DNA from: Sphagnum magellanicum
Lineage: Eukaryota; Streptophyta; Sphagnopsida; Sphagnales; Sphagnaceae
Reading direction: 5' to 3'
Assembly: GCA_021904315.1 (NCBI GenBank)
Contig: CM038918.1
Span: 15,081,349 to 15,145,348 of the forward strand
Length of the DNA: 64,000 nucleotides
Below are positions 20,621 to 42,919 of the stretch, piece after piece (the stretch's first letter is position 1; every line of letters starts with the position of its first letter). The notes below the pieces were generated by a model. The model made no database searches. It was not told the DNA's origin and worked only from the letters and a program-made list of their open reading frames with translations. The position numbers and the translations under genes are program-made.

Positions 20621-20675
20621 GGTGCCTTATAACATACCAGACTCTTTGACATCTTCCAAGACCAGAGTACCCATC

Positions 20676-20897
20676 ATGGCTGCACCACTAACTTCCACTG
20701 CCAGTCTACATGGTCCAATTTGCATTAGCTGCATGAACGCACCACCACGTCAGGTTCTGAAGTTGAAGAGTTCGTCATCTCAACAAGCCTTCCAGTCCAG
20801 AACACACACTGGCCGCCTTGGGTCCTTGAAAGCTTACAGTCCAAACTCATCTTCTTCAGCAAGTTTGGGAAAGACAAGTATTCATGCTCATTTGGAG
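20676..20897 (+). CDS. Transit-peptide first exon (1a) of terpene synthase 1
   Basis: ATG at 20676 opens 74 codons beginning MAAPLTSTASLHGP. They are rich in Ser, Thr, Lys and Arg, with no acidic residue until the last codon, the classic make-up of a plastid transit peptide. The exon ends HAHLE just before GTACACAT, a good donor. A second, diverged copy of the same exon lies about 308 bases downstream. Plastid import is an inference from composition. Confidence 0.6.
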
Positions 20898-23675
20898 GTA
20901 CACATAATTATTATCAACACTCATCATCACGAATTATTAAACTTCCTACAAATACGTTTGAATTCAGGACAATGTCGATAATGTTAGCACAACTTCATGA
21001 GACTTGTATGATTAGGACCACAAATGGCAAAGTTTGCATCAAAAAAAAGAAGCTACCAGTACAAGGTGTGAAATTGCAATGTTCCTTGTTACAAACATCT
21101 ATGTTGAAAGCTTGTAACAATTTTCGCTACATGAATGCTTCCCATTCAAATACCATTTCTTCTATGTTGTTGGCAAGGAGAAATTGTCATGCTCACTTAC
21201 AACAGGTACACATGATTCTTTAAAACCTAGGCTGATCCAAATAGTCAAACATTATTTTGTCATTCCTTCTTCCCAATCCTTTTTTTCTTAGTCCTTACAT
21301 AAAATAGCATGATGATTAGGTCATGAAAATCATTTCAACTTTCTCAATTAAATCATTGCATATCACTAACCCAAGTTCCAACGCATATGTTTGATAGGGA
21401 ATTCATGGCAATCACAAAGGTCGCAACACTTCATATAGGTAAAATATGGGATTCAAATTCAATCAAAAAATTTAGCAATTCCAAGCCAAGAATTATAAAT
21501 TAAATGTTTGGTTGAAAGTGGAGGATTTCCAAAATGGTTGTTAAATTTTAAATTTTGATTTCCTTTATACTTGAATTCAAACATTTGAAAAATCAATATT
21601 TTTTTTTTTCATATATTGTGAAGATGTCAAGTTATCCTTCAATGTTCATGCATGCAAGTGCACATAATCATTAATATGTGAAATTTCTATTATCTTATAG
21701 GAAAGTGGGAGTTGGAAATATGCAAACAACCCACAACATGGAAATGCAACAACGTCAACAAGATGCTTTGGACTATGTTGTTCCCAAATACACACCCCCT
21801 TTCATTTGCAAGATGAATCCAAATGTAGAAGAAGCTAACAAATTAGCTCTTGTATGGTTTGCCCACCATTTTCAATCTAGCATGAGTCCTAAAAATTTCC
21901 AAGATATATGTTTAGTAAATTGCCATTATCTAGCAGGAGCAAGTTATCCAGAAGCTTCAATTTCTCGTCTTGAGTTTGTGATAGAATTTATGATTTGGCT
22001 TTTTACTATGGATGATGAAAGCCTTCCACAAAGAAGCACCTTGGAGGAATTAGTTCAATTCCAACAAGAAACCCAAGCTGTAATCATGTCAACTTTCCCT
22101 GAAGATAAGAGTCTCCAAGATAATCTACAAAAATATCTCAATGATGAACGTGCTTTTGAATACAACAAGGATTTCTTGGAGAAAGTACTTGCACAAGCTA
22201 CAATGAAACCATTACTTGAAACAGGTATGTAGACCACATACATAATTATATCAATTTGCAAATGCACCATAAACAAAGAATGCATTTTTGTATAAAATTT
22301 GATTTGAAACAAATTTTATGAAAGCATTGGGGTGCACTTTTTAAAAGGGGAAAAAATTGGTATTAATAAAATCTCTAGAAAATTAATATTGAAAGAAATT
22401 TTTTATCAATTGTAAAGAAGTGAAACATAGAAAAATTTGAAATATCATCCAATCAAAGGATAGAGTTACATCATTGGTTTGAATTCAAAGATGTGTTGGA
22501 ATTGTTATCAGATGTTAATGATCATCAACATTTATCTCCAATTGCTTCATCATTTCAAGATTTGTGGATAAAAGCGATTTCAGTGATGTCAAAAGAATGG
22601 AGCCTTCGATTTGCAAAAGTAACACAACGAGATGTGTTTGCCAACTTTTTGGAATCACAAAATCTACGACATGATGTTCATCATTCAATTTCTTCTTACA
22701 TCTCGGAGAGAAGAAAAAGTGGATTCATAGAAACATATATCGTATGTATCAAATATCTAAGCTTCAATATGTCTTTGTAATCTATAACCACAATTGATGA
22801 TTCACATTAGAGTTTGATTGGGATGGAATTCACATATTTCTTGAGTGAATAAAATCATGGGGTTGGTCTAACAATTGTTAGTGCCCATTGGAAAGGAAAT
22901 AAACCAAATGTTAGATTAAGAATTAAATGACTAGTATTCCAATTGATTGTTTTAACTTTTTAATTTCTTATTGAACTAAATTGATGAAAGGTTTTCATGA
23001 CAGGTTCTTCTAGAGTTTATCGAAGATATCTCTTTACCAGACACAATATATTACAGTGTACCCATGCAACGTTTATGTGAGGCTACAGCAGATGCTGTTT
23101 GTTGGATCAATGATGTTTGGTCATTTCCAAAGGTGATATTTCATTGCACTAAAATTTTTAGCACTTAATACCCCACCAATTTGTCATGTATAAGTTATAT
23201 ATCTTAAGGTTTGAGAAATAACTTGTTTATTTAAGATTCATGTCAATATTTTTTAAAGATAATCGTGCCTATATATTATTTCATGATTAGGTTATAATTA
23301 TAACATAACCTAGACTTTTTTTTGAACATGTTTGTAATATTAATAATGTGGAGATTAATAATCTTTTTTTTTTCATGACAACAGGAGTTGGCGGCTGGAG
23401 AAGTGGCCAATTTGGTTTTCTTGATTGGTAAAGAAAAAGGGTGTTCTTATAACAAAGCTGCACAAATTGTGGCTCAAATGCTCATGGATAAGTTCAAAGA
23501 AATACAAATTGCATCTATGGAATTAAAGGAATATTGCAAAAACCATCAAGCAACAACATTGCAAATGGTTGCCATTGATCATTACATCTCATGTTGCAAT
23601 AATTTCGTTAGTGCAGCACATTTGTGTTATTCACAAAGTGCTCGTTACCAAAGAGTGCAAAATATCTCCAAATAG
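20676..23675 (+). CDS. Microbial-type class I terpene synthase (MTPSL), copy 1
   Basis: Predicted class I terpene cyclase that ionises a prenyl diphosphate with Mg2+ to make a mono- or sesquiterpene; the product cannot be predicted. Exons: 20676-20897 (transit peptide), 21701-22224, 22464-22741 (22431 is an alternative acceptor), 23004-23132 and 23385-23675 (stop TAG). All introns are GT-AG. Visible marks: aspartate pair in FTMDDES (22011), R-x-x-S-G pyrophosphate sensor and effector (22709-22723), NDVWSFPKE split by the last intron (23109-23132 and 23385), and the C-terminal RY pair (23643-23648). Exon 1 enters exon 2 in phase 0, but the enzyme frame is shifted by one base; an extra C in the CCC at 21730-21732 is the likely cause. 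Alternatively translation starts at ATG 21720, giving about 400 residues without a transit peptide, within the family's usual length. Phases from exon 2 onward are consistent. The family assignment is firm; whether the gene is functional is open. Confidence 0.85.
20972..21205 (+). CDS. Diverged duplicate first exon (1b)
   Basis: An open stretch from ATG 20972 (or 20981) to 21205 ends CHAHLQQ before GTACACAT, the same end and donor as exon 1a (HAHLE, GTACACAT). Partial similarity runs back through LH..., CAxGTxxTGAAxTTG and CAACAAG/TACAAAC words. It is basic and low in acidic residues, like a transit peptide, but less Ser-rich. It also ends in phase 0. It may be an alternative first exon or a decaying duplicate. 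It begins about 75 bases after exon 1a's donor. Confidence 0.4.
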
Positions 23676-23681
23676 AATAAA
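23676..23681 (+). terminator. Poly(A) signal-like AATAAA after the stop
   Basis: AATAAA follows the TAG stop of terpene synthase 1 directly. It could be the near-upstream polyadenylation element, which would give a very short 3' UTR. The motif is common in AT-rich DNA, so this is weak. Confidence 0.3.
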
Positions 23682-25829
23682 ATTTGAATCCAACATACCA
23701 AAAATCAATATGTATGCTTGAAATATTGGGTATTGCATTGGACCATTAATGTCACCTTACTGCAACATGACATATTATATAATCCTTTGCATTTTATGTT
23801 ATGTCAATTGTAATTACTTTTTCATTTTCCCCTTAAACATATGGAAATGGATAATACTTAAGTGATAGGCAATAGGTTTGGGTTTGACATTTGAGATGGT
23901 TTGGTCAAGAACATAAAGTCACAATAAAGTTTCCTTTTCAAAAATGGTTATGGGAAGTCATCTCAAATGATAAGTTATGGTGAGGTGAAACGATGATTCA
24001 CCTTAAGCTCAAAAATCCATTTGAAACATGTGGTTATCCCCTTGTTTACATTTTTGTCAAGCATGTGGTAAAGGAAGCTTTCATGATTTTTTTTGCATTC
24101 TCAATTTCAAGCTAGAAGGTGATATGGGCATTGTTAGATGCTTAACAATGTTGGGTAATGACTTAAGAAAAATTGATTGCATAGACATGATGCATTTGAC
24201 TCACTTTTAGTCTCAAAGCCTAGCCTCTTACCTTAATTGGACGTTCAATTACTTGCAAAAGGTCAATGCCATCATCTCTAGGGGACAAATAAGTGGGGTT
24301 GCCAAAAGCCATTCAAATATTTTTTTATAGTTTCTTAAACGTTTAAAACCTCTCCAACAATTGAAGATTTTTTATTTTATCATATTTCCTAATAGTATCA
24401 TCTCATTGGTTTAATCAACATGAAACATGGATCAAATTGCTCTTAAAGAGATTTTTCTTCAACAAACTTAAATTTCCTACAATGACATCCTAGATTTTGG
24501 ACAATCAAACTACTATCCACATTCAAGGAGATGATTGGTTTTGCATCACATGTAACCTCCTTGGAGTAAATACCAGTTGAATATTTACAATTTTCTAGCT
24601 TCTTCAAGTGTATTTTGGGCATCTCCTTGATGGGTAAGAAAACAAAATTCAATATGTAACATGGACAAGCATACCAACATTATAGTGAATCTTGAGGAAA
24701 AATATATATGCATAAATTAACATATACATGAAGCACAAATCAAAAAATCGTCTTGCTTCTTGTCATTAAAATTATGGGCATAATAAAGCCTTAGGGCTAC
24801 TATCATTGGGGAAGGGTGTCATGGCTATTATGGGAGGGACAACAATTGTTGTGGTTACTATGGCAAATACATTAATGAATGATCATTAAAACTATGTTTC
24901 CCAAACCCCCATAAAACCCATGAACCCTTTGCCAAAAAAAACGTATAAAAGCCATTGGCATTAACAACAATGGTTACTCCCCTTCTTCCTCCTTCCCAAT
25001 CCGTAAATAGAAGGCACCTTTTGGCTCACCCCCCCCCCCCCCCCCCCTAAATGCCCCGTTTTTCCTTTTGTCAAGTTATCCCATGTTTGTTTTTTTGTTT
25101 CTGTTTCGACTTGATGGCTCTTTGAAACTCAAAAAGAGCCATTCCAAAATTCAAAGTGCCCAATAGATTAATATTTAAACATATAGACAACAAATTGAAA
25201 AGTTTTTTTGAGTTCAAATCTCATGTTCTCTTTGTGTTTGTTTTTATGAATGATTTGGAATTGAAGATATCTTAATGGACTCATAGTCCATCCATATAAT
25301 CTCATGGTATCTATGACAAATTTTTTTGATGTTCCTACGCAAGAGTCCCAAAATTCGGACAGTTATCAATTGGTATCATTAATACAAATGTGGGCATAAA
25401 CATGAGCCTAAATCACTATGGGGCCTTCACAATGAAATAACTATACTTAGCCTTAAATCCCAATCCACCACATGTGAAATGAATCAGTAGTATGTAGTGG
25501 ACCCACTTCACTATATAATTCATTGAATTTATTGTAGTAAAATTGGGTCATTACATAGTGCATCCAATTCAGTATGTAGTGCATATAATTCATTCATAAT
25601 TAAACTAGGAACCTATGTCTTGGCCTTTATTTATTATTAGTAAACCTAATTGAATCAAGACATTTCATAATTATTAAACAACTAGGCTATGCAATTGAGA
25701 AAACTAGATGTGCTTGCTTTTGTTTCAATGCCATGTTGGTTTATGTGACATAAATGTTAACCCAATAGATTTTTGGTCACAATGTTGGCCAATCCATTAA
25801 TAAAAATGTAGATAATAAAAACTAGCTTA
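23682..25829. other. Intergenic DNA downstream of terpene synthase 1
   Basis: No gene is recognised. A run of 19 C lies at 25029-25047. Short open frames (24028-24210 plus, 24443-24652 minus) have no recognisable domain. Confidence 0.4.
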
Positions 25830-26510
25830 TTTATAACAACCTAAAATAACTAAAAATAACCCATGTTGAAATAACTTAAAATAACAAAATATCAACATAG
25901 TTAAAATAGCCTAGAATATCATAAATAACCAAAAGTGGTTTAGAATTGCCAAAAAAACCTAAGAAGGAATGCTTAAATTAGTCAAAACAACCCTAGGATG
26001 GAATAACTTAAAATAGTAAAAAGTGGCCTTAAATAGCCTAAAATTGTCAAAAATAACTCAAAGTGGAATAGCTTAGAATAACCAAAAGTAGATTTATTTA
26101 ATAAAAAAAACCGAGAATAAATAAAAATAGCCTAGGGTGAAATAACCTAAAAGAGCCTAAAAGAGCCTAGAATAGCATATAATTGCCTATAATTGCCATA
26201 AATAACATAAGGTAAAATATCTTAATAACCCCAAAAAATATTTTAAATTATTAAAAATAGCCTACAATAACCAAAAAATCTAGGATGAAATAACTTAGAA
26301 TAGCCAAAAATAGCCTAATGTGAAATGACATAAAGTAACCAAAACTAGTTTAAAATAGCCAAAATTAGTTTAGGGTAAAATATCATAAAACAACCAAAAA
26401 TGATATAAAAAAGCCTAGAACTATGAAAGTAGCCTAACATAAAATAATTTACAATTGCCAAAAGTAACCAAAAATATCATAGTATAACTAAAAGTAGCTT
26501 AATTTAGGTA
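25830..26510. repeat. Degenerate AAATAGCCTA-type tandem array
   Basis: About 0.7 kb of loosely repeated 10-12-base words of the form AAATAGCCTA / AAATAACCAA. A longer period of roughly 65-75 bases is marked by GxxGAAATAACTTA-like words (near 25864, 25996, 26060, 26137, 26211, 26284, 26374). It is strongly decayed. Confidence 0.6.
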
Positions 26511-26819
26511 GTATCATTATATTAACAAAAAACTTGTCCATTTATTAGAAAATTTTATTTTAAAAGAAACTGTTCATTGAAATGTTATTGAATGGTGATA
26601 TTCAATTTATTTTTTGTTTAAATGAGTTTACATTTTCAAAATGAAATAAATGTAATCATGTACATTATTGAAAAAAAATTATAAGTAAACATTCATTATT
26701 TCATTTGGAAAAAATGTCAATAAGATATGAAATTTGAAAATTTATGTTTGTGTAATGTTTAAAATGAAAAATTCAATACACAAATGTATTGTAACATATA
26801 TTCACAACAAATGAAATAG

Positions 26820-26880
26820 TTTGGTGGTAAAGGTGTTTGTTTTCATATTTGAGGTTCAAGGCTTAGACCTCATTAACGAT
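26820..26880 (+). repeat. tRNA-like stretch (possible SINE head)
   Basis: TGGTGGTAAAGGTG (26822) and GGTTCAAGGCT (26853-26863) match the A and B boxes of a tRNA-type pol III promoter in order and spacing. It resembles the stretches near 2850 and 3870. Confidence 0.35.
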
Positions 26881-27560
26881 GTGGTCAATCATGGTATGTT
26901 GACCAAATACCTCATACAATGAAAATTAAGAAATTATCAAGAACGTAAATTATTTTATTTTATTATTTATATAAATATATAAGTTATTAATTCAACATTT
27001 TTCTTAAGTGAAATGACTTGATGAATTTGTTTCATTGGTTACCAATGAACCAATTCAACTATTTGTAATAACTAGTCTCCATTCATTAGGGGGTTCATCA
27101 TTTTCACCATGGTAAATATGTCCAAATTCATTCAAAATCTAATGAAACATAAAATGAATTTGGATAGATATTGGTGTAGTGTATGAATTTTTAAATGTCA
27201 CTTGAATCTTTTAAAACAATTATCTTTTAAACATGTGACCTCATTTTTTCCCCTTGTTAAAATATTTCAAACAACATAAAGATTAATTGATTTTTAGGTG
27301 ATTTGACTTTAAAATTATCACATAAAAATTTGATGCTCGTAAGGAATCTCATTTCCCAAATTAAGGAATTCACTTTGGGAGTTCTAAGGATGATTTCATT
27401 TTATTCCCAAAGACTTCCCATTTTTTGTGGGAATATTTTTCATTCAATTTAATTCATTTCATGTTTTCACTTGCTCTATAACTCATTTCATGTAATATCT
27501 TCAAGCTTGTGAACCATTAGGAAAGAAATAACACTAAAAGGAATATCTAACATTTAACTA
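26881..27560. other. AT-rich DNA between array and gypsy relic
   Basis: No gene is seen. It could contain the decayed 3' LTR of the minus-strand element at 27.57-31.0 kb, but no LTR ends could be placed. Confidence 0.3.
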
Positions 27561-27588
27561 CCAAAACCTCAACCTTAAGTCATTTGTT

Positions 27589-27729
27589 GCACCTAAGACA
27601 GAACCAATTCCCAACCGATATATCCTCCAATGGTAGTGTGAGACATCCTATATGCCATCCTTTGGAACACTAATCACAAAGCAACATAATGGTAGCCCTT
27701 ACAAACTGCCCATACATACAACAAAATCC
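27589..27729 (-). pseudogene. PHD finger at the end of the gypsy integrase
   Basis: On the minus strand one frame reads GFCCMYG, then TIMLLCD-stop-CSKGWHIGCLT, then VGNWFCLRCNK-stop. This is the PHD zinc-finger pattern C-x2-C, C-x2-C, W-H-x2-C, W-x-C-x2-C. One ligand Cys is changed to Tyr and one in-frame stop sits between the C-x2-C pair; both are explained by C-to-T decay. PHD fingers read histone H3 tails. Here it probably served target-site choice by the integrase, in the role that chromodomains play in chromoviruses. Confidence 0.75.
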
Positions 27730-28388
27730 AACAAGAATAATTATTAATGATGGGTCAATTTGGTTATCCACATTGGGAAGATGACATGACACACAATTAC
27801 ACACATGATCCTTCCATGTCTAACCATTTCGGCCTTCCAACAACAACACATCCAAAAGGTAAAACCTTTTGCACACACAAAATAACACAACATGTAGTCA
27901 CATCCAACATAATTGGTGCGGTTTACTATAGGTAAGCATAATCCCTTGGTTCAAACCTACAAACCCAAAGTGAATAACCACCTCCCAATGTTGAACAATT
28001 GTTAGATTTATTGGCATCACATGCTTGAACAAAGTTGCTCACATGCTTGAAGCCACACCTTTGAAACATCCAAATTAATAATGGCCATCACATTTCATCA
28101 AATTGAGCTTGGAAGCTCAAGCTCATGGCCAAACAATTAAAACTATGGTGAAAAGGATGCAAGGGAAGCTTGTCAACTAAATCTATATCCCATGGTTAAC
28201 CACAATAGCTATAGATCCCAATTTCAAGTATGGCCTTTTTGGAGGCCATATTTTCATAAACCCTTTTTCACTATATGCACCATTTGTTCAACTAATCCAT
28301 CTGCTTTAAGATGGTCTCATGAAGTGGTATGATGATCAATTAGTATTTTCTCCCATAACTCTTGGAATTCCCCATGGAATTTCATGCC

Positions 28389-28691
28389 TTAATCAATGAG
28401 AACTTTAAATGGAGCCCCAAACCTATTAAGCACCCTATCCAAAAATGCATATGCAACACCTTCACTAATGTGATCTAGCAACGACACCAACTGCAACCAC
28501 TTGGAAAAATGTTCAATGGGCAAATGCACTAATGAGTGGCACATTTTTGGACTAAAAAATATTCCACACAAAGTCCATGTTATAGTATTAAATTGAATTT
28601 TTAATTTGGTAACATTGGTTAAATCGTAATAAAATCCATGTATCAAAAACAATAAAGTCCACATTAATGGAAACCCACTTACATACTTCAA
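28389..28691 (-). pseudogene. Integrase core fragment of the PHD-type element
   Basis: An open frame of 100 codons ends with PIEHFSKWLQLVSLLDHISE then FLDRVLNRFGAPFKVLID. This is the gypsy integrase stretch between the first and second catalytic Asp (FSKW...GxPxxxxxDxG). The continuation toward 27.9 kb shows HGEFQEL, DHLKADGLVEQMV (GLxERxN/V-type helix) and GYRFSxQASLASFSPY in the same direction. Confidence 0.75.
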
Positions 28692-29891
28692 AAACCTTGG
28701 CCTTGGTGAAAATAAAATTCATATCAAAGAAAACATATAACAATTAAAGATTTATAATGAAAATAAAGGCCAATTATGATAACACAAAAGTCTAATACTA
28801 TGAAATGGTTAAAGTTTTCAAGATAAGGTTTTCAAGTATGAGTTCTTAAAATAATAAAATTTGACTTACTTAATCACTCCAAATCATTTGGATTGGAATT
28901 CTATGTCAACATTATAATTTTATAAACTTCCAATCAGCATACCAATCCCTATTTTTTATTTCAAAAGTCCATAGGTAAAAGTGAATGATTTTTTTTCAAG
29001 AAATGATTGTACATATGTTTTCATAATCAAGTTGATAATCTATTACCAAGTCCCAATTGGAAAATTTGACACTATATGGTTTGTCAAAAGACAATAAAAC
29101 AAGATGGGTATTGCAAAAACTAAAAAATGTCAGAAAAATGAACCACTCATTTATGCATCTACCTTGATCATAACCAAAACATATCAATTATGTTGAAGTG
29201 TCAAGTTGAAAGGGTCTATAAAATCCAAACTCCGCCAATACCAAGCCCCATGATGGGCAACAATTATGAATGAGGTGTAGGTGCACTAAATGATGCATGA
29301 ACTCTATCACACACAATATATTGAAAAACAAGTTGTTGAACTTGTAGTTGCATCCCTTACCATCAATATTATGTTTGGAGCAAATTATAAGTTTTATAAA
29401 CCTTAAAATGGCCCAATTCTTCGTGAACATGTTACATAAGACTTCCATGTTTTTTAAGGTGAAGCACCATTCACATTTGTCCATACTTGGAAAAGGGTAT
29501 CACCTTCCCACCTAAGTTGTTTGACCTTATGCACAACCCAATCATGTTCCTTGGGTGTTAATCCACTCAAAATTTCACTTGCTTGCAAATATGCAATAAC
29601 AGGTGCATCATCATGAACATTAACGAGACCATCACCTTACGGTTCAATGTCCACATCATGGGAATGCCCCATATTCATGTCCATCTGTAATGTCCCAAAA
29701 CATCCCAACAAGGCACATAAATATGCAGAGGCATGCCATCTTAAAACTACTTCCAAATCCACCTCCCCATTCCATTGGGCACCTATGGTATTTTCCTCAT
29801 TAGAACTTAGGGTTTGATTCAACCCATCAACATCTTGATTAACCCTACCAACTTGATGAACTATATCAAAATCACATTCATGTAAGATTAA

Positions 29892-30146
29892 TCATGCCCA
29901 TTTGGCAAATTTTCTTATGAATTGGTCTAATTCTATGAAAAATTTCAAGGGTTGGTGATCAATAACCAAAGTGAATGGGCTTACCATAAAGATAGCACCA
30001 AAATGAAAAAAATTTGCCCAAACGATAGCAAGGCACTCCCCTTCATATGAGTTGTATTTGACCTCCATCTTATTGTTGGACCAACTAACATATTCCACCA
30101 TGAATTCTTGTCCATCATCATCTAGTTGGGTGAACATAACACCCAA
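29892..30146 (-). pseudogene. RNase H fragment of the PHD-type element
   Basis: An 84-codon open frame, starting MGVMFTQLDDDGQEFMVEYV and followed by YNSYEGECLAIVWA and FTLVIDHQPLKFF, matches the gypsy RNase H pattern (GAVLxQ, YSxxExExLAIVxA, FxLxTDHxxLxxL). The second catalytic position Asp in VIDHQPL is kept. Confidence 0.75.
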
Positions 30147-30498
30147 CCCTAACGTGCTCTAATCAATATGTGATTGGAAAGGACGTCATTTGATGGGTTG
30201 CCTCAAAATAAGGGTTGATGAAAGCCTATATAACCTTCAATTTGTGAAAGGCTTACTCTTGTTCCTCACCTCAAACAAACTTTTGGTCAATCTATGTCAA
30301 CATAATCAAAGGTTTAGCAATCTTGTTAAAGCCCTTGACAAACCTTCAATAATAGTTACACAAGCTTAGAAAGGCTCACAATTGGCTAACTTTTGTTAGT
30401 TAAGGGACCTATGAAATGTCCTTAATCTTGGCCTTCTAAACCCCTAATCCGCCCGAATAAATCATGCAACCCAAGTATTCCACCTAAGTTTGGAAAAA

Positions 30499-30950
30499 TC
30501 AACACTTGCATGGATGAAGCTTAAGGTTATGTTCCTTAAGTCTTCCAAGCGCTTCTTGCAAATGATGTGTATGACCCTTCAGTGTTAGGTTGAAAACAAT
30601 GATGTCATCAAGATAACATTTGGCAAAACCAAACTCTTCCAACACCCAATCCATAACTCTTTGGAATTCTACATGAGCATTCTTCAAACCAAGTGGCAAA
30701 AACTTCCATTGGTATAAACAATCTTTTTAATGAAGATTAATACCCCAAAATGTCGTCTTCACTTTGTCACCATCCCTCAATGGCAATTGATGGTAATTAA
30801 AACATAGGTCCAAGATATTGAAAACCTTGGCCTATCCAAAGGCATCAAAGATTTCCCAAGTTTCAAAAGATATAATATGGAGCCCAAATTATTTCAAGGA
30901 TACCCAAAGTGGGGTATTGCACGTTCATTGAATATTTTGTTTTATGAACT
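30499..30950 (-). pseudogene. Reverse transcriptase fragment of the PHD-type element
   Basis: MPLGLKNAHVEFQRVMDWVL then FAKCYLDDIIVF and LKEHNLKLHPCKC form the canonical gypsy RT palm (PFGLxNAPxxFQ, YLDDIxVxS, HxxHLxxVxxxL). The YLDD catalytic box is intact. Decayed upstream codons continue to about 30.95 kb. Confidence 0.8.
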
Positions 30951-31000
30951 TGAGTACAACATGCATTGAATGTGTCTAATTGAATTGGAGCTTTGTATTG

Positions 31001-33150
31001 ATTTGATTATCCACTTTGTTTGTAACATTCTTATCATGGAAAACACCTTCAAAACAAAACTTGTAATACCCTTATATAGCAGGTGTCCAATACTTTAATC
31101 ATGCCCTTATTTATTTGTTTGACTACATAAGACCGAGTTCCATGCAATACCTTCATTTTATTTTTTCCTTTTATCGTTGTTAACCGTGGGGGGTCTATTG
31201 GAATGACAACTGGGTAGGTAGCTATAGCCATGTAGGTGGGTAGATAAATAGATGGGGGGTAGGAAAAGTCTCAAAAGCTATAAAAAATATATATAATATA
31301 ATATAATATAAATAATAAATTTGGGTGGGGGGCGTGGAGAAAATAAAGTCAAACAAACAAAAATTGAAATCAGGGAAAAAAAACTGGAAGGGGGTGGGGA
31401 GAAAATAAAGTTGCAAAAAAAACTGAGATCAAGGTTAAGAAAGGGCAAACAAAAAAGGTCAACTTAATGTGACCAGACAAGAAAGCAATCGGATAATGTT
31501 CTCATGTGAACATAACAAGTTTTTAAGGTTTTGGTTTTTGTTTTTAGTGGCCATCAACTTTCTGCATGTTAACGATGGAAATTATTTCGTCATTGTTTGT
31601 TAGCTACAACAATTACTATTTCAAGGAAACTTGTGAACATGGGTAGGAAGTTTTATTTGTTTATGTATTATGTGGAACTGATCGACAACAAATTATGGAT
31701 GGCTGAAGAAGCTACAACATTGAATGGAGGTATGTAGAATAAGACAGTGGAAGGCATGATAAGAAGGGCAATTTGGAAGCAATGTAGGCAAGGTTTTCTT
31801 CTTTCATCATTAGTTTTTAGAGGATGGTAGGTTTGGCTTGTTGAGATTTGTAGTTGTTGTATTTGATTTCTGCTACACCAGTGACTACACTATGGTAAGC
31901 AATGTGTCCTTGTTAAGAATAGATTCTATAAGGGGTTGATGTTGAGGATTGATGAGGAAAAGAAGGAAATCAGAGTTGTAAAAAAAGGGGCATTTAGAAG
32001 GATAAGTATGCATTTTGAATGGGGACCTTGGTTGAATCTCTATTTAATCCATGTAATAGGGTAGGTATTTGAATGAATACCGGAAGCTTCAATGGGGTGT
32101 CCTTGGGTTGGGCAGAGTGAGAGAAATGAAAACAGAAGTGGGAAGTTAATTAAGATCTATCTGTACCAATATTTGCATAAAAAAATTATTTTTCCTTAGT
32201 GGTCTTAAATAAACTTTGTATACGTCATTCATACTTTGGTCCGGACATGAAGATCAAAATGTTTATGAGATTAAGGTTTATCAAATGAAAAACTTAATGT
32301 TCCTCTACATTGTTGCATTTGTAAGAGAAGGGTTAACAGCTCACATGGATTGACTGAACACTAAAGGTTCTAACTTTAAGATATACCTCAATAGATCTTA
32401 TAAGATGTGATTTTGTACATAGTAGCAAATAGTTTGTTGCCACTATAACAAGTTAGTGAGAGATCACCATGTATGTGCTAGTTGGCAATTCACACATAGA
32501 ACATTGAATCTTGTTCCAACAGATCAGTAGCACCAACGGAAATTCTGGTAGCATCGGGTTTGCATTCTTGACAATGTAAATTGTTGGAATTGATGGGATT
32601 TTAGAATTCCTAGGGTTTTGTGTTTCTACCATGAGTTTCATTTGCACAAGATATTTTTTTATTGACCCTTCTTTTATGGTTACACTGGGATGGCACAAGG
32701 ATAGAAAAGATAATCCTATCAATGCACCATCCATCCACATTGGTGCATTGGTGGGTGTTGGTGCACTCTGCTGAGTGGATGGCATTCCTCCACATATAGA
32801 AAGAAGCACATCTTTTCATTTTCACCCTCATTTCATGGGAAAGCGTGCATTACACTCTAGTGAAATGCCCCATCTCACATATTTGTTATGGGGATGTAAT
32901 ATTCTTTATAGTGTGCAGATATTAACAAAGGGAAATCAGGAGCATCAGAAAGATGAGGTAGCCACTAAACCCATTCCATCAACTTTTACAGAAGAATAAT
33001 TGATGGACACATAGAATGATCGATCTAAGCCTCGTGTTATAATTAGTGCTATACTTCTTGAATTAAGAATTTTGTAATCACGAACTGAAACAATTCTGAA
33101 TGCCAAGGGTATTTTTGGTAAATATTTAAGTGTCATTAATCCTTAGAATT
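31001..33150. other. Intergenic DNA, possible retroelement leader
   Basis: No intact gene. An AT microsatellite lies at about 31286-31312, with purine-rich tracts at 31250-31440. From 32.4 to 33.0 kb there are open pieces on the plus strand (VDGIPPHIERSTSFHFHPHF and on to 32999) that may be the N-terminal part of the gag relic described next. Confidence 0.35.
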
Positions 33151-33860
33151 ACAAGAACCTTGTTAGAGCTTTGGTGGCAGTACAAAATGTAACATTTACT
33201 ATAACATTAGAACAAATTCTTGTAAGTAGAGGTCAGATTGCAGAAAGATATGTATCTGAACCAAAAGAAGTCAGATTACCTCCAATTTGGAGGTAATATT
33301 GTCTTTGATTTCAATAGTTGTCGATATTGTGACAAGACCAAACACATGTTCAAAGATTGTCCTTAGGTTGATGATTGGGTTGAAAAAAATCATGTTCAAA
33401 GAACATTTTCTTGATCTTTAGGAGGAAATACCATTGTTATCTAAACCAAAAAATGTTAGATTTAACCTATGACCTATCTAGAACCGACCAGAGTTACTGG
33501 ATCATGTACAATAATGACCAATAGAATATAGACAACGAGCATAGCTTGAGCTTTGAAAAGATAAAATATTGACACTGGTTACTAACTATCTACTTGTGTC
33601 ACACCGCCACCTGTATCAGAATCCTTACCGATGCCAACCATCGTATTGACACCACCTATGCCCATTTCAACCCAAATTTTTTGGAATCTAAGAAACAATA
33701 TTGTGTTATCATCAATTCTACCAAGCAAGGAGATACTTGGTATCGAGTCGCCTATAGTACCACACCATTGATCAGGAGGCATACAACAATTGTATCTTCT
33801 TCTTTCATTCATTTCTCTCTATGGCCAAAAATTTCAAATCCTAACAGTATATATATATTT
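33150..33860 (+). pseudogene. Gag relic with zinc knuckle
   Basis: The plus strand reads LVRALVAVQNVTFTITLEQI, then GQIAERYV, then a zinc knuckle CRYCDKTKHMFKDC (33318-33359, C-x2-C-x4-H-x4-C). After one stop come a proline-rich tail (TPPPVSESLPMPTIVLTPPM) and IFWNLRNNIVLSSILPSKEI at about 33600-33750. The CCHC knuckle identifies a retrotransposon nucleocapsid. It lies on the opposite strand to the chromovirus inserted beside it, so it is a different element. Stops and shifts make it dead. Confidence 0.6.
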
Positions 33861-33931
33861 CATAAAGTAATGACAAAATTCTCGTCACCCATACTAATGT
33901 TCAAGATACAAAATTCCCTTTGGTTTCAAAT

Positions 33932-34683
33932 TGTCATGGGCATGAAAACAAACACGACAACGAAATCTTCCCAAAGACAAAACAAGAGCAAGCCAGCAAG
34001 CCTATTTTTAAATCCAAACTATGGAACAAATAAGAGAAAAACAAGAACAACATTTGCATAAGAAAAATTTTAATGAAGCTTTATTGCAAAAAACATGAAA
34101 AGAACAAGACAAGGTTGCGGCTAAAATAAGTTCAAAATTGGTGTTGAATAGACTAAAGGAAATGAAAGTCCTATGTCCTATTTATACCTCTTCGAGGAGC
34201 TAGCTCAACCGAACCTTGACCTAGCTCAACTGCTAATGGACTAGAAGTCAATTAAGAGTGAACTAAGAGTTAATTAATATTGAACTAGAATTTAACTAAA
34301 AGTTAGCTAATACTAAATTAATAGTTTATTGAGGTTAACTAAGAATTAATTGAGGTTAACTGACAATGAACTAGGAGTTAATTACTGATGAACTGAAAGT
34401 CCATTAATAGTAAATTAAGAGTTAATTAACAATGAAGTAAAAGTTAACCAAAAGTTAATTGATAATGAACTAGGATTGGATTAGGAGTATGAATGAACTT
34501 AGAGTTAACTACAAGTGAACTAAGATTTAATTAGATATGCACCACTAGTGAACTAAATGATGATGTTGGTGATGATGTTAAATAAGATGTTCAACATTTG
34601 ATGCTTGACAAGATGTTCAACAAGATGTTTGACAAGGTGTTGGACAAGGTGTTAGAAAAGGTGTTGGAAATGTTTTCATGACA
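33932..34683 (-). repeat. 3' LTR of the chromovirus
   Basis: 752 bases starting TGTCATG and ending CATGACA. It is homologous to 39337-40014 throughout, including the shared blocks GAAGCTTTATTGC / GAACTTTATTGC, AAAAACATGAAAAGAACAAG and the TTAACTAA-rich degenerate tract. A purine-rich tract (AAAAGGGGACC on the minus strand, about 34687-34697) just inside is the likely polypurine tract. Confidence 0.85.
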
Positions 34684-34734
34684 TTAGGTCCCCTTTTAAA
34701 GATGAATTTCACAAGGAGTGGCCTTTGGTTTGTC

Positions 34735-34896
34735 TAAATATCTACTATGAATTTTTTACACCTTTTCCATGGCATTCGATAGATGTTTAGTTGGTTCCCA
34801 AATTCATTCGTTGACATCAAATCTTTGCTAGTGGACTAGGTATTGCACTTGTTGATTCGATATTCTTGAGTTGAAAATTTTGTCCACTTCATATTC
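34735..34896 (-). pseudogene. Chromodomain of the chromovirus integrase
   Basis: The minus strand reads EYEVDKIFNSRISNQQVQYL, then VH-stop-QRFDVNE-stop-IWEP, then TKHLSNAMEKV. This matches the chromodomain pattern YxVExILxxR...YLVKWxGY...TWEP, with the Trp and Arg codons turned to stops by C-to-T or G-to-A changes. Chromodomains bind methylated histone H3 and steer these elements to heterochromatin. Confidence 0.8.
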
Positions 34897-35101
34897 TTGA
34901 TCGCCATCAACTTGAATTGGCAGAGGCGTCTCATGGACTCTCCCTAGAATGTTTGATGCATGGTAAGGCTCCAACAAAAAACATGAAACACAGGATGAAT
35001 TTTCATGGAATAAGGAAGTTTGACTTGGAAGGCCACGACATTGATTTTCTTTACAATTGTGAATGGACCAAGCTTTTCGTAATCTAGTTTTTCCAATGAC
35101 C

Positions 35102-36250
35102 TCATTGTCTTAATGTTTTGTTGTCAAAGCCAAACTTGGTCTTCAACTTGGGAGCTGGATTGTTCCTTTCAATGTTCATCAACATTCTCCTTGTATTGCC
35201 TTTGCACTTCCTCAAGGTTTGATACAACATGGGTTCGAAATTGGCCAACCACATGATTTGATCCTTAGTTGTTGGATTCATGACTTTGTTTACACCTTGA
35301 ATGTCAAACTTTGGGTGTAAACCATGATTTGCAAATAATGGTGTTTGTTGTGTTGATGAATGTATTATATTTTTGTATGCAAACTTCGCCAATGATAAGA
35401 GCTTCGACCAATTATCTTGATGGTAATTAGTTGTGCATCGTAAATATTGTTCTAAAATTTGATTGATCCATTCTATTTGGGGAAGGAAGGTTATGACAAC
35501 TTCATTTTCACACCTCAAAGCTCGAAAAGCCTCTTCTAGAACTTGGACACAAATTAGGGTTCACAATAAAAAATGATATCATCAGGAAAACCATGATATC
35601 AAAAAACATGGTCCAAGAATAACTTGGTTGTTCCTTCATCGGTTATTGTTTTGGTACAAGGAATGAAATGAACCATTTATTTTAATCGATCCACCACCAC
35701 CAAGATTGAATCATAAAAACTAGAAAGTGGGAGGTCCATGATGAAATCCATGGATATTGAAGACCATGAAGATGTTGGAATTAGCAATGGTTGGAAAAGT
35801 CCATGAGGCTGATAATGAATATTCTTCACTCAAACACATATGTCACAAGATCTGACAAATTCGTTCATATATTTCCAAAGTTGTGGCCACCAGTAGTTAC
35901 AAGACATTAATTCCATGGTCTTCGTTGAATCCAAAATGGCTTACAACTAATGCAACGTGCTTGTCTTGGAGAACTTGAAATCAAGTAGGGTCATCAAGGA
36001 CATATAATAACCCATCATGGTATAATAACTCATCTTGAAACTTGAACTTGTCAAACTTTCCCCAAAAAATTTCTGAACAATTTCAAATGGTAATGGTAAA
36101 TGAATTGTTGACTAGATTTTCATGAATGCACTTGATAAGGATTTGGTCCTCAAGAGTTACTGATAATGTTTGGAGTCAAAGGTGTTTAAGCTTCAAGATG
36201 ACATCACATTGTTGTTCATAGGTCGCATCCCCCTCCTTAGGCATGAAGCA
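35102..36250 (-). pseudogene. Integrase of the chromovirus
   Basis: The core appears on the minus strand at about 35.77-35.55 kb as [25 protein letters not shown], then MVHFIPCTKTITDEGTTKLF and GFPDDI. The C-terminal half is an open frame 35518-35102 (QIEWINQILEQYLRCTTNYH, then WSKLLSLAKFAYKNIIHSST). The strings match the gypsy integrase signatures DFIxxLPxS...[16 protein letters not shown] and QTExxNxxLExYLR...LxxAEFAYN. Confidence 0.8.
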
Positions 36251-36372
36251 CGAACGATGAAATAATGTGTCAAGTTTCCCTTGTTGGTGCTTAAAATGGT
36301 TTGTCATGACAAATCGGAATTGGGACAATGACAATGCCCATCAAGCTTGGCATTGATTCAAAACATGAACTG

Positions 36373-36678
36373 TCATGAAATACTACAATTTTTTTGGTCC
36401 GAATACATAATGATTTCATGTTGAGCTCTTTCAAACAAATGACAGCAATCTTCAAAAGCATCCATGATGGCAAGAAGTTCCTTATCATGAATTTTGAAAT
36501 TAATCTCGACAAGAGAAAACTTAGAAGAATAGAAGTGAATAGGATGAAGAAGATTGTCTTCTCCATGTTGTGAGAGTACGACACCAAGTGCAAAGTTAGA
36601 AACATCCATCTCTAAGACAAAAGGTTTGGAAGGCTCCACATGAATCAAGAGTGGGGTTGCTGTGAATGAAGTCTTCAA
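36373..36678 (-). pseudogene. RNase H of the chromovirus
   Basis: An open frame of 101 codons contains FVLEMDVSNFALGVVLSQHG, LHPIHFYSSKFSLVEINFKI, then HDKELLAIMDAFE. This is the canonical RNase H of gypsy pol (DASxxAxGxVLSQ, YxxxDKELLAIVxAF). The first catalytic Asp and the Glu of DKELLAI are kept. Confidence 0.85.
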
Positions 36679-36789
36679 GGATTGGAAGGTGTTTTCAGCT
36701 TCAATTCCCTAGGAAAAAGGTTGATCCTTCTGAATCAAACAAATAAAAGGGGCCATTATTGTAGAATAATTGGTAATGAAACATTGATA

Positions 36790-37560
36790 GAAGTTCACAA
36801 AACAAAGAAAACTTTGAACATCACGAACCAAAACTGGGGTAACCCAATCAATAGTGGTTTGAACCTTATGGGAATCCATGTAAATTTTGTCTCCAAAGAT
36901 GATATACCAAGGAATTCCACTTTAATTTGATGAAATTCACATTTGTCTAATTTGGTGTAAAGTCTAATTTCCACGAGCTTTTCCAAAACGAATGATTAGT
37001 GTCGTTTGTGTTCTTTCAAATCCTTAGAAAAAATGAGGATGTCGTCGATGTAACAAACCACAAAATCATCTAAGAATTCATGGAAAACATCATACATCAA
37101 GTATTGGAATACTACAAGTGCATTGGTAAGGCCATTTGGGCATCACCACATACTCAAAATGCCCATACCATGTTTGGAACATTGTCTTCCATTCATCACC
37201 TTCTCAAATACACATAAGATTATATTCACCCCACAAATCAATCTTGGTAAACACCTTGGCATGACTTAGTTGGTCCAACAATCCTGAGATTAAAAGCAAT
37301 GGATATCAGTTCTTGATCATGAATCGATTCAATCTTCGATAGTTGACACACATTCGAAGAGAACTATCCTTCTTCTTGACGAACAAGATGGGGGCTCCTA
37401 TTGGGGACTTGGAATGTTGAACGAAACCCTTTTCAAGGTTTTCATCAATGTACTCACAAAGTGTTGTAAGTTCATATTGCGACAAGTTATAAATGGGCCC
37501 AAATGGAGATTATGCACCTTCTTCTAGGTCAATTGCATAGTCATATGACCAATGTTTCGA
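36790..37560 (-). pseudogene. Reverse transcriptase of the chromovirus
   Basis: The minus strand shows [46 protein letters not shown] and GDEWKTMFQTWYGHFEYVVMP, then CYIDDILIFSKD with the YIDD box at 37052-37041. Frame changes and stops separate the pieces. Confidence 0.85.
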
Positions 37561-37949
37561 TGAGGTGTTGACATTTTTCTTTTCAAACACATCCTTGAAT
37601 TCTTGGTATTGAGGAGTGTTCTCATGTTGACATGGTTCAACATTTGACATGGGAAAAGTGTAGATCAAGAATGCATCTCCTTTCTTAGCAACTTACATGA
37701 AAACTTTGGTTCCAACAACTAAAGGATTGGAATATCTAGGCCTTTTTACATCATTGAAATCCTTTTTTTGCCTCAACTTTTGCTTGCAACCATTATCATG
37801 ATCAATTTCGGTTGCATGACATATGCCATCATGATTGTTGCCATGCATGTTTAAAAAACCTTCATAGTCGAAGGCCTCGTGTTTTAATGTTTCAAAGTGA
37901 AGACTCCTTGTAATCTAATCCAATTGTGGATTATGGAAAACAAGCCAAG

Positions 37950-38200
37950 ACAACCCAATAATGATTGGGTTTCTTGGTGATGAGATGACATTAAAAATGA
38001 CCTTATTAGTGTGGGAACCAATGGTAACCTCCAAGGCCTTGGTTTCATGTGTGATTAGCCTTGATGAAAACCCTCAACCATCAATGACCTCCATTGGCAT
38101 TGGAATAATTTTCTTTACTAGGGCCAATTTGTATTGTTGCACCAATTTCTTGTTAATGAAACATGTTAATGCACCAGAATCAAGAAGTGTTTGGGCCTCC
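37950..38200 (-). pseudogene. Aspartic protease of the chromovirus
   Basis: The minus strand reads AQTLLDSGALTCFINKKLVQ (active-site D-S-G at 38181-38173), then EVIDG-stop, then HTNKVIFNVISSPRNPIIIG and LSWLVFHNP. This is the usual gypsy protease pattern DSGAxxxFI...ILGxxWLxxxNP. Confidence 0.8.
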
Positions 38201-38401
38201 ATTGTCATGTGCTTGCCACATTTGATAGTGATTGATATTTAAAAACATGGTGTTGGAGCTGAAGATAGTTGGGGACCATTTTCATTACAAGATGCATGAA
38301 CATCCAGCCTCACGGTCCTTATTGAGACTAGACATGTGTGTTTCTTGACTTTTCTAATTGTGGGCTGGTGGTAAAGATGGCACATGTTGCATGTTTTTTG
38401 G

Positions 38402-39030
38402 ACAATTTCAAACCACATGGCTTGGATTTCCACAATACAAACAAAAATTGATGTTGTTTTTCCTATTATGTGAAGGGCTTAAATCAATCTTATCGATTTG
38501 CATTGGTTAAAAAAACATGGGTGGTGCAACTTAACGTTGTGTTGGTGGTGATTCCCAATGTTTTTTTTGTTGATGCTCGAAAAGTCAATTATCACACCAA
38601 ATAGCTTGTGTAATGGCTTGATTCAATGTTGTAGGGTCTGGACTTGTGAGAAGTAAGACCTTCACATCACTATGTAGTAGTCCAAATCGGAATTGGCTTA
38701 TCAATGCCATTTCATCCCATGAGATGTCACAAGCCAAATGCATACATTGAAGCCAACCGTAATCCTTGACAAAAGGATTGTAATTTATTTGTTGAAATGC
38801 ATTCCTTGTCCAAGTCTCTGAAAGTGGCATTGATCTCCTTAAAGATTGCATCAAAATCATTGAGTAGGGGTAATTGGTGCTCCAACAAAGGTGTGAACCA
38901 AGCAAGGGTGATGTTTGACAACAAGGTGCAAACCAAACAAGGGTCGTGCTTGATAACAAGGTGTTGATGAATCCAACTTGGGTTGGGCCAGTTGGATACC
39001 AATGTGGATGAAGTTGGATGATTAAGCATA
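38402..39030 (-). pseudogene. Gag with zinc knuckle of the chromovirus
   Basis: A gag core is visible on the minus strand as LLNDFDAIFKEINATFRDLD, then LQSFCQGLRLASMYAFGL, then (shifted frame) SQFRFGLLHSDVKVLLL and PTTLNQAITQAIWCDN. This is the Retrotrans_gag pattern. The zinc knuckle CLYCGNPSHVV-stop-NC lies at 38443-38402, with its Arg codon CGA turned to TGA. Confidence 0.75.
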
Positions 39031-39336
39031 ATTGGTTGATAAAGCCTTAGAACTTTGATGACGTACTATCAAGTTTATCTAGTAAATTGATTTGTGGCTC
39101 CTTTGGTTGGGATTGGTTTGTGGACATGCATCCCAAATAGGTCAAACTTTGATTGGTTTATAGGTGAACAATGGATTCATGGAGCATTTGATTTACCTAT
39201 TCTAAATTCCTAAGGACAACAAGAACTTCTTCCATGGACACAAAAACTTCCTCCTTCGATGAAAACATGATTTTTAGACAAAAAAACTTTGAGAACAAAA
39301 ACAATGAAAATAGGCTTGATGGGAGTCTGTTCAAAC

Positions 39337-40014
39337 TATCATAGGCATGAAAACAAACACCACAACAAGATCTTCCCAAGGACAAAACAAGAGGAGGCCT
39401 TTTTAAATCCAGATTATGAAACAAACAAGACAACAATAATAATAACACATGTGAAAGAAAAATTCATAGAACTTTATTGCAAAAAACATGAAAAGAACAA
39501 GACAAAGGTGTGATTAGAAGATGTATTCAAAATTAGTGTTCAACAAACTAAAGGAGAGGAAAGTCTTATATCCTATTTATACTTCTTGGGGGAGTTAACT
39601 CAACCGACATTTGACCTAATTCAACTCCTAATGGACTGAAAATCAATTAAGAATGAACTAGGAGTTAATTAATATTAAACTAGCAGTTAACTAAAAATTA
39701 GCTAATACTAAATTAAAAATAAACTAAAAATTAATTAAGGTTTAACTGATAGTGAATTGAAAATTAATTAATAGTGAATTAAAAGTTAATTGATAGTGAA
39801 TTGAAAGTTAACCGAAAAATAATTGATAATGAATTAGGATTAAATTACGAGTTAATTATGAGTGAATTTAGAATTAATTAAAAATGAACTAAGACTTAAC
39901 TAGATGTGCATCACTAATGAATTAGATGATGATGTTGGTGATGATGCTAGATAACATGCTGGATAAAATGCTCGACAAGGTGTTGGACAAGGTCTTCAAA
40001 ATGTTGTTTGAACA
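39337..40014 (-). repeat. 5' LTR of the chromovirus
   Basis: 678 bases homologous to 33932-34683, the outer end reading TTTGAACA and the inner end TATCATAGG. It is shorter than its partner by several indels in the TTAACTAA-rich tract. A standard primer-binding site (TGG...) is not evident next to it. Confidence 0.8.
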
Positions 40015-40304
40015 ATAAACTTATAAAATTGGAGTATATAACTTATTGTTTATATCTTGGGGTTATACTAGTTTGAAGGTTTTTGTCCGTAGACTTTGGA
40101 TCCCATCACAAAGGTGACTTGAGAGCCATGTTTGTTAGATGATGAATCCCATTCACAATCTTTTTTATTATGTAGCATTGGTTTACAATGATTAGTGCAT
40201 GAGGATTAAGTTGCCATTTGATGAATGCTTTCAAGCTTTTTCAACTACTTTGTCAATACATTGTAAATTACCAACCCATAAGCATTTATGTATTTAACTT
40301 GCAG

Positions 40305-42919
40305 GCTGAAAGTTCAATAGACTCAAATGACACAAAATTCCAACCACAACATCAAGTCTAGGACTTTGTTATTCCAAGATTCGTACATCCATTTTGTCAC
40401 ACACGCAATCCCTTGGAAGAAGAAGCTAATCAAGCAACCCAACAATGGTACCACCACTCTTTTGTTAATACTATGATTCTTGAAAAATTTCACAAAACCG
40501 AAAGTATGGACTTGCAAACTATACCCGCATGCGTCCACCCAACTGCTAAATTGTCTCGTCTCGAATGGGCATTTGAATTTTACATGTTCATGTTCATTAT
40601 AGATGATCTGGTTGAACACAAAACTCATGCTTCCTCCCTTGAGGACTTGGAAGAATTCTTCTTGGAACTAATGGTTGTGATAATCTCATCTTTCCCTGAA
40701 GACCATATTTTAAAAGAAAACCTCACAAAGTATTTCAACGATGAAATCGACCACAAATCAACCAAGGATTTTGCTAAAAAGTACTTGCGCGAGTTATGCA
40801 ACATTCTAAAACAGGTATGTTACACAAATGATATTCTCAAGGATCATCTAGTTTGTATTAAAGAGTTGGACCATAGGGCTCATAACACGTACAACCTAGT
40901 ATTATAAGTTTGATAACATTTGGAAATTTTTTTATAGGTTTTGATGAACGCAAGGTTTCTCCAATTTGTGCCGGTTTTTCAAACTTGTGGTCAAGAGCAA
41001 CGTCAGAGATGCCTAAATATTGGAACATTAGATTTGCACGAATTATACAACAATCTATGCTTTCGCAATTTTTGGAAGCACGAAGACTTTTCCTACACAT
41101 ATATCCATCGATTTCTACTTATATGTCACAAAGGCATGAAATCGGATATATGACTACATCTCTGGTATATAATGATTACTTGGGAATGATGTTGAAAATC
41201 AAGTAATGTAAATTAAATTATGCATTAAGGGTGAAAACATGGTAGTGTAGACAATTTTTTATCATTGTCATCAAAGAAAACAAGTAGCTATAAACAAGTT
41301 TTAATGTATTGAAAGTAAAAATGTTTTTTAAAAATTTATTGATTAACATAAGGATAATCTTTAATTTTATCACAATGATGTTGATTAATCACATATCTAA
41401 TATGCATTTAAGTATATTTTTAAAAAATAACTATTATTTTTTCTACTTTTTTAAGCTATTCAAACTTGTACAAATAGGTGAAAGTAAATGAATTATTGAA
41501 TATTCTCCATTTTCAACACAATGTAACCCTAAAATGCACTTGTAAGTTATCAACATTTAAATATTATAATAAAATACATCAAACTTCTAATGGAAAAGTA
41601 GGTTTGAAACTCAATTTGACTAGTCATTTTCAAACATACTTGTTATCTATTTTTATTGTGCCAAAGTTTTTCAAATTTTGTAATCACTTCATTATAAACT
41701 CAAAGAAAGGCACTATGCTTTTATTATGTTATTTTCAATTATTTTCAATCTACTTTCTTTTACTTTTGTCAAAAAATAGACCATTTTTTAATTGCTTTGG
41801 AGATAACTATTTTTTTTGTCTACTTTACCATACATTCACCCTTGAATAATACACTCAAGTAATTCACTATCAAATTTCTTATCATATATATAAGATTGAA
41901 TCTTACAAATGAATTCAATGTTAATTTCATATTGTTTGATGCTTCAAGTGCAAAGGCAATGGAGGATACTAAAGTGGTTCAAGCCATTGAATCAATCCAA
42001 TAATTGTCCATCTATGATTTCATCTTTAATCCCCATTTAAAAAATTGTATATGGGTGATACCCACAACACTAAATTTGATGGATTTGTCAATAGGTAATT
42101 ATAGATTATGTGGATGATGTATTTCTGCCGAACATTCTATATTATAGTTCACCAATGCAACACCTATTCCAAGCTGCGGGTGATGTCATTTGTCGGCATA
42201 ATGATATTTATTCATTTCAAAAGGTTGAAATTCTTATCAACTTTACAATCTGTATATAATTTGAAAAGCTTTTTCATTATAAATTAATTGAATAAATATT
42301 CATTAATAGTTATTTTTTAGCACTACTCAAGATATAAAATTGTTGTCGCATAGAATTGTGCATTCATCCATCTCACAATTTTGCCAAAGGTAATGTTTGT
42401 TCGGAAAATGATATTTAATTATTTTAATTTATCACATATTAGAGTGAAAAAAAATTTGGATTTGGATTTGGAATTGTGAAGAAGTTGAAGAATATTGCTC
42501 AAAATAAATTAGTGTTTATCAAATATATGTACATGATAGAACATTAAAAGATATTGACAAACATGTTTCAACATATTATTGCACATCAATTTTTGGATGA
42601 CTTAATTGTATTAATGTGGAGAATATAATTTATGGCATGACAGGAGTTGGTGAATGGAGAGATGTTTAATTTGGTAATGATTATGGGTAAAAAAGAGGGC
42701 ATTTCTTATAACAAAGCAGCAGAGCTTGTCAATCAAATGGTGTTAGACAAGCTTGAAGAAGTTCATCAAGCAATTACAAATCTACGAGCATTAACACAAA
42801 GCAACAATGAAATCACAACTCTGCAAGCAACCGCCATTGAATGGTATATCATAGGTTGCACTAGTTTTATTGGTTCAAGTCATGAATATCATATCCGAAG
42901 TTCTCGTTTTCATGTGTAA
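40305..42919 (+). pseudogene. Microbial-type terpene synthase copy 2, pseudogene
   Basis: A second class I terpene synthase with the same gene structure as copy 1. Exons: 40305-40814, 40938-41164, 42095-42223 and 42644-42919 (stop TAA). Marks: canonical IDDLVE (DDxxE, 40602-40616), RHEIG sensor and effector (41132-41146), HNDIYSFQKE split by the last intron (42200-42223 and 42644), and C-terminal RF (42905-42910) in place of RY. Lesions: an in-frame TAG at 40359-40361, where copy 1 has TTG, and a one-base deletion in the A run at 40776-40780, which shifts the end of exon 2. No transit-peptide exon is seen upstream, where the chromovirus lies from 40014 leftward. The second exon is also shorter at its start than in copy 1. 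It is therefore very probably a pseudogene, though most of the reading frame and all splice sites survive. Confidence 0.85.

Follow-up and report, generated by a model that had tools for sequence, protein, structure and literature searches.

The window, a 64,000-nucleotide stretch of Sphagnum magellanicum DNA (C12:15081349-15145348) from a genome of which 438,994,042 bases in 31 contigs were searched, contains two loci, termed copy 1 and copy 2, that match the Pfam terpene synthase model PF19086 (Terpene_syn_C_2). Copy 1 matches this model with an E value of 9e-35 and a score of 120.7 bits (cut-off, 23.7), as expected from the Pfam check proposed for it in the original prediction, and copy 2 matches it with an E value of 9.8e-28 when its pieces are read jointly. 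No plant-type N-terminal TPS domain is listed for either copy in the Pfam search, and no TPS domain of copy 1 besides PF19086 scores above its own cut-off, the plant-type model PF03936 reaching 22.4 bits against a cut-off of 26.3. Because both copies also contain an NSE motif and a C-terminal RY/RF pair, their assignment to the class I microbial-type terpene synthases holds. A four-row profile matches germacradienol/geosmin synthase (PDB 5dz2) with an E value of 3.4e-28, with the RRK-G stretch, the NSE motif (ND..S..KE) and the RY/RF pair at the C terminus all aligned. The PDB matches of copy 1 (the best 60 of 72; for the profile, 53) carry names that we take to be known from bacteria and fungi, several rows being named merely 'terpene synthase', and its NCBIfam matches carry what are presumably bacterial and fungal cyclase names, NCBIfam being, as we understand it, a prokaryote library. 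A scan of genome contigs confirms two of 36 stretches, which are bacterial with 21-22% identity. Copy 1 is intact and is predicted to encode a single-domain class I terpene synthase of the microbial (MTPSL) type. The MTPSLs are a bacterial-like family, reported from non-seed plants, that is responsible for volatile terpenes and, in two mosses, for isoprene. The distinction of a live from a dead copy is also borne out, because the frame of copy 1 is open throughout, whereas copy 2 is broken by a stop, a frame slip and a split.

Copy 1 is encoded by six exons on the plus strand (20972-23675), which are open throughout and specify 482 amino acid residues. Exon 1 (20972-21205) has its own start and 78 codons, is transit-peptide-like, and has an equal length and a GT donor in the relatives of copy 1, which are L040 and L041 on C11 and L042 on C18. 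L042 lacks the first ATG of this exon, the next in-frame ATG being located three codons later. Exon 1 is followed by a mini-exon of 41 nt (21398-21438), exon 3 (21701-22224), which holds the Asp-rich motif DDESL, exon 4 (22512-22741), which holds ERRKSG, presumably the pyrophosphate-sensor region, exon 5 (23004-23132), which holds the NSE core NDVWSFPK, and exon 6 (23385-23675), which holds the Glu residue of the NSE motif, the RY pair and the stop codon. The mini-exon restores the reading frame and is necessary, because exon 1 is out of frame when it is joined directly to 21701. The exon lengths and GT/AG sites of L040 and L041 agree in all six exons, and five of the six are projected in full in L042. 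All but one (L053) of the 19 loci L040-L058 yield a similar exon of 41 nt between AG and GT; among these 18 loci, its score exceeds the highest one obtained from 20 shuffles of the locus in 16 cases and ties with it in two. Among the four clade-D loci L035-L038 it was detected in L036 alone, and the four loci of clade E that were tried (L059-L062) yielded none.

The homology of copy 1 to L040-L042 begins at 20914, and these relatives have no match upstream of this position. The original prediction started copy 1 at 20676, but the region 20676-20897 belongs to copy 2 as its first exon, and the gene model given by a plain reading of the sequence is corrected in this respect. Splicing of 20676-20897 directly to exon 3 of copy 1 was rejected, because the phases clash unless the mini-exon intervenes, and an acceptor at 22431 for exon 4 was dropped in favor of 22512, which suits copy 2 and L040-L042. 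Judged by the dN/dS ratio of copy 1 versus L042, which is 0.41 over 386 codons, the copy 1 lineage is under purifying selection. Selection on copy 1 itself cannot be shown, because the changes between copy 1 and L040 (4 synonymous and 9 nonsynonymous) are too few.

The catalytic motifs were compared in 34 rows, consisting of 32 fetched loci and the two window copies. The NSE motif is NDVWSFPKE in copy 1 and NDIYSFQKE in copy 2. Its N, D and S residues are present in all 34 rows and its Glu residue in all 30 rows that have exon 6, while 28 of these 30 rows have RY or RF (L043 and L055 do not). Every row has the DD pair except that of L070, which reads NDVVE. In contrast, DDxx(D/E) is present only in L061, L068, L069 and copy 2 (DDLVE), and 29 of the 34 rows, that of copy 1 (DDESL) among them, have no acid at the third place of this motif; most rows outside clade E have DD followed by E or Q, without a third-place acid. 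The claim that copy 1 keeps all catalytic residues is thus correct for the NSE motif, the RY pair and the DD pair, but not for the canonical Asp motif, of which the third acid is missing. The alignment has a two-residue gap at DDESL, so that the E of this motif may occupy the position of the third acid of copy 2. DDESL corresponds solely to the loosest form of the Asp motif, DDx3, and is compatible with activity, because DDx3 is among the variants on record for the Asp motif of MTPSLs, as named in the available part of PMC6779861.

The gene of copy 2, also on the plus strand, is divided into two halves. The 5' end of the gene (20459-20913) comprises the upstream region and exon 1, ends 16 bp into intron 1, and is 95.5% identical to positions 1-468 of L059. 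Exon 1 (20676-20897) has 74 codons, ends in phase 0, is transit-peptide-like, and is aligned with both tandem relatives described below. The remainder of the gene (40011-43331), consisting of the rest of intron 1 and the body, is 93.7% identical to positions 493-4101 of L059 in two pieces. It contains the second exon (40305-40814), with DDLVE, an in-frame TAG and a shift of the frame by one nucleotide, the third exon (40938-41164), the fourth exon (42095-42223), with NDIYSFQK, and the last exon (42644-42919), with the Glu residue of the NSE motif, the RF pair and the stop codon. As predicted, the two copies have downstream introns in common: three are located at the same protein positions, and their phases agree except for the first, which is disturbed by the frame slip of copy 2.

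Copy 2 is the third member (T3) of a tandem array on C12, of which T1 is located at approximately 15043-15054 kb and T2 at approximately 15066-15082 kb. T2 (L059, C12:15072900-15077000) has a second exon acceptor without AG and a tandem duplication of approximately 300 bp at the end of the third exon, and T1 is likewise broken by stops and length changes. L060, an E-type relative located elsewhere, has an open frame in exon 1 and in those exon matches that were read. In both tandem relatives, the sequences corresponding to the two halves of copy 2 are only 24 bp apart (C12:15045949/15045974 and C12:15073367/15073392), and these 24 bp are the same in T1 and T2. In T3, they are replaced by 19,097 bp (20914-40010), which split copy 2 in intron 1. 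The pairwise counts give approximately 40.5 nonsynonymous and 10 synonymous changes on the T3 branch, whereas T1 and T2 together have 27 and 21; the Fisher test of this difference, made on rounded counts, has a p value of 0.016. The ratio calculated for the T3 branch is near 1.0, and copy 2 is therefore evolving almost freely.

The tree of the 34 rows, from which further loci found in the genome were left out, was built from 375 of 397 columns and rooted at the midpoint; L035-L038 were included without exon 6, and stops in L047, L055 and L062 were treated as X. Copy 1 belongs to clade A and copy 2 to clade E, each with a support of 100/100, and copy 1 is the sister of L040 with a support of 96/84. 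With this midpoint root, the deepest split of the tree separates the two copies, which are not each other's closest relatives. The three exon pieces listed for the pair have identities of 36, 37 and 41%.

Several other arrangements of related loci were observed in the genome. L049/L050 and L056/L057 (C13:22.12-22.23 Mb) are MTPSL pairs with identical rows in opposite orientation, which suggests inverted duplications. Members of two MTPSL clades occur as oppositely oriented neighbors 4-14 kb apart in five cases (L043/L035, L044/L038, L046/L037, L047/L036, and L048 with C1:21250788); one pair each is located on C15, C5 and C12 and two on C1, and three of these pairs are within approximately 100 kb of a contig end. 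PF19086 also matches three loci on C3 (L001, L002 and L003), of which L001 and L002 read DDYFD and LLNDIQG, motifs that we take to resemble those of plant-type diterpene synthases rather than those of MTPSLs.

The insert in copy 2 consists of two unrelated blocks. The first block (20914-31201, plus strand, 10,288 bp) carries copy 1 and is a duplicate derived from C11, because it is collinear with C11:277981-288285 and 97.4, 98.4 and 97.6% identical to it in three pieces. A second place on C11 (195229-201951) is 96% identical to window 20914-27651, and copy 1 differs from the two C11 copies by approximately 2.6 and 3.2%. The second block (31202-40010, 8,809 bp) consists of repeats, including an old Ty3-type element with direct repeats at 33925-34624 and 39330-39991, which are 77% alike, and an RNase H domain at 36376-36708 on the minus strand. 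Its best relative among the matches listed is C6:118013-122783, with 84% identity over window 35303-40010. A near-identical source of this block is not present among the best candidates listed in the genome search, and the insert may therefore have arisen in more than one step. This result counts for little, however, because the same search omitted the C11:277981 donor, though it is present. Two minor features of the insert are a repeat of approximately 1.2 kb at 31466-32690, with approximately 40 relatives of 72-85% identity among the matches listed, and an unbroken run of 19 C at 25029-25047.

Insertion of a fresh LTR element was rejected as the origin of the insert, because the similarity of its direct repeats (77%) is below that of the members of the array (approximately 94%). 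The second block probably came as old sequence, because its repeats are too diverged for an array of this similarity. The ends of a Helitron were also sought by eye; the left junction reads A|TC, but a CTRR end was not seen at the right. No target-site duplication was seen at the insert, and 24 bp are lost. Break repair that copied other templates is the most likely origin, because 24 bp are lost without a target-site duplication and two unrelated blocks are joined.

The two flanks of the insert differ in their relationship to the array. The left half of T3 is 98.6% identical to T2 over 719 bp, including exon 1, whereas the body is approximately 94% identical. The site patterns favor the grouping of T2 with T3 in the left half (29 versus 5 and 5), but that of T1 with T2 in the body (48 versus 26 and 37; 82 versus 42 and 44), and the divergence of T3 differs between the left half and the body with a p value of 3e-7. 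The divergence between T3 and T2 is 1.4% in the left 719 bp and 2.4% across the preceding 3 kb, and resembles that between copy 1 and C11. Because the left flank is nearer to T2 than the body is, a single plain insertion is insufficient, and gene conversion or repair copying is needed. A conversion or repair tract that came from T2 and reached the insertion point fits the contrast between the left half and the body. On this evidence, repair with the use of several templates is the preferred, though inferred, course of events. Further upstream, approximately 1.4 kb of T3 (13825-15188) is absent from T2; this is a recent mobile insertion, because its first 0.8 kb recurs at at least 17 other places with 94-97% identity.

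We therefore propose, with a probability of roughly 85%, that an intact MTPSL on an insert copied partly from C11 is nested in intron 1 of a decayed MTPSL of another clade. Copy 1 would have come within the insert of 19.1 kb, a stretch copied from C11 over at least 10.3 kb, and this insert would have landed in intron 1 of copy 2, the third tandem member and by then an older, already decaying gene. Copy 1 is consequently located directly behind the upstream region and first exon of copy 2. The original prediction regarded the pair as local duplicates, one of which had decayed. The two genes are indeed of the same family, on the same strand, 17 kb apart and alike in three downstream introns, but local tandem duplication is scarcely credible, because it is refuted by the tree, in which the copies belong to separate clades supported at 100/100 with sisters on C11 and in the tandem array respectively, and by the uninterrupted site in two of two tandem relatives. 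The exon identity of 36-41%, when compared with the 97.4-98.4% of the C11 donor block, and the different plans of the 5' exons, with a mini-exon in 18 of 19 loci L040-L058 that was not found in L059-L062, also argue against it. It is very unlikely, although slightly less so, that an unrelated piece of C11 was misjoined into the array during assembly. Near-identical tandem and C11 copies can confuse an assembly, but a random misjoin would not place both outer breakpoints within 24 bp of each other on the site of two of two relatives, and copy 1 differs from both C11 copies by the percentages given above.

The nested position bears on the expression of copy 1. In L040 and L041, TATAAA precedes the start of the homology to copy 1 by 22 bp, and in L042 by 33 bp. 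Copy 1 has thus lost its own promoter, because the break falls 22 bp downstream of the TATAAA of its closest relatives; the apparent location of the break near the transcription start, as judged from TATAAA, may be due to chance. The two candidate first exons (20676-20897 and 20972-21205) both have a phase 0 donor that reads G|GTACACAT, and both are open through the mini-exon. Each contains one acidic residue, in 74 or 78 residues respectively, and targeting peptides often have few acidic residues. Transcription may start within the upstream region captured from copy 2, whose exon 1 may be spliced in frame to the mini-exon of copy 1, which would exchange the targeting peptide. It is possible, though the chances are rather against it, that copy 1 is such a young fusion, in which the captured upstream region and transit-peptide-like exon drive the gene and give it new expression and a plastid address as the result of one repair event with at least two templates. 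The odds of this fusion are lowered slightly, because TATAAA is not present in the captured stretch at 20400-20680 or 20560-20913. Exon 1 of copy 2 could alternatively be spliced to the body of copy 2 across the insert. There is nearly an even chance that copy 1 is intact yet silent, a young gene with a lost promoter that the captured stretch does not replace and that will soon decay. The loss of the TATA region of the relatives, the lack of TATAAA just mentioned and the decay already under way in the host gene are consistent with silence, but the final 719 bp of captured sequence, including exon 1, are 98.6% identical to the second tandem member, the splice phases fit, and no lesion is seen in copy 1.

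If the nested gene is expressed, the DD pair and NSE motif of its product would bind Mg2+ and ionize an allylic prenyl diphosphate, and the N-terminal exon suggests that the enzyme is probably plastidial. PcISPS and LjISPS, two moss MTPSLs that have a transit-peptide-like N terminus as copy 1 does, each use DMADP and give no product with GDP, FDP or GGDP, as far as the available part of PMC13098426 describes, and isoprene production by Sphagnum is reported in the available part of PMC12141778. Copy 1 is nevertheless improbable as an isoprene synthase, because PcISPS and LjISPS contain DDxxxD, whereas copy 1 contains DDESLP, and because the genome also has many other MTPSL loci and plant-type synthases. 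The word Sphagnum is absent from the main text of PMC13098426.

Copy 1 resembles the MTPSLs of Selaginella, liverworts, hornworts, mosses and ferns in having a single alpha domain, a PF19086 match, the NSE motif, the RY pair and matches to bacterial-type cyclase profiles. It has the RRK-G stretch, the NSE motif and the RY pair in common with 5dz2, which we take to be a bacterial enzyme, but differs from it in the Asp motif, which is DDHFLE in 5dz2, and in having introns and a targeting-like exon. Nested genes and exon shuffling can result from segmental duplication, in which a gene is copied into an intron of another gene, so that a foreign upstream region and first exon come to precede it, as is the case here. 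Unlike nested genes in general, the host and guest here are distantly related within a single enzyme family, and their splice phases are compatible. The original prediction took such genes as markers of non-seed land plants, and this idea fits the report of MTPSLs from Sphagnum lescurii (PMC6779861, available part). According to the available parts of the sources, the introns of MTPSL genes range from 0 to 7 (PMC6779861) and most of these genes have no intron or one (PMC11579073), whereas copy 1 has five introns and a 41-nt mini-exon. Neither MTPSLs, including those of Sphagnum, nor variants of the Asp motif are new, but a nested MTPSL arrangement of this type was not found in the titles and abstract openings of the papers listed for MTPSLs in Sphagnum and for nested terpene synthase genes. 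The locus shows a possible route by which the family may spread or be renewed, with a copy from another chromosome placed in the intron of a decayed relative and an upstream region and targeting-like exon ready ahead of it, and provides a testable case of the capture of a promoter and transit peptide.

Two further features are located in the window outside the two genes. A repeat of approximately 0.9 kb at 48485-49402 is found at 39 or more places with 83-86% identity, and an open frame with WD40 repeats is present at 56210-56620 on the minus strand, for which the best Pfam models are THOC3 beta-propeller and WD40.
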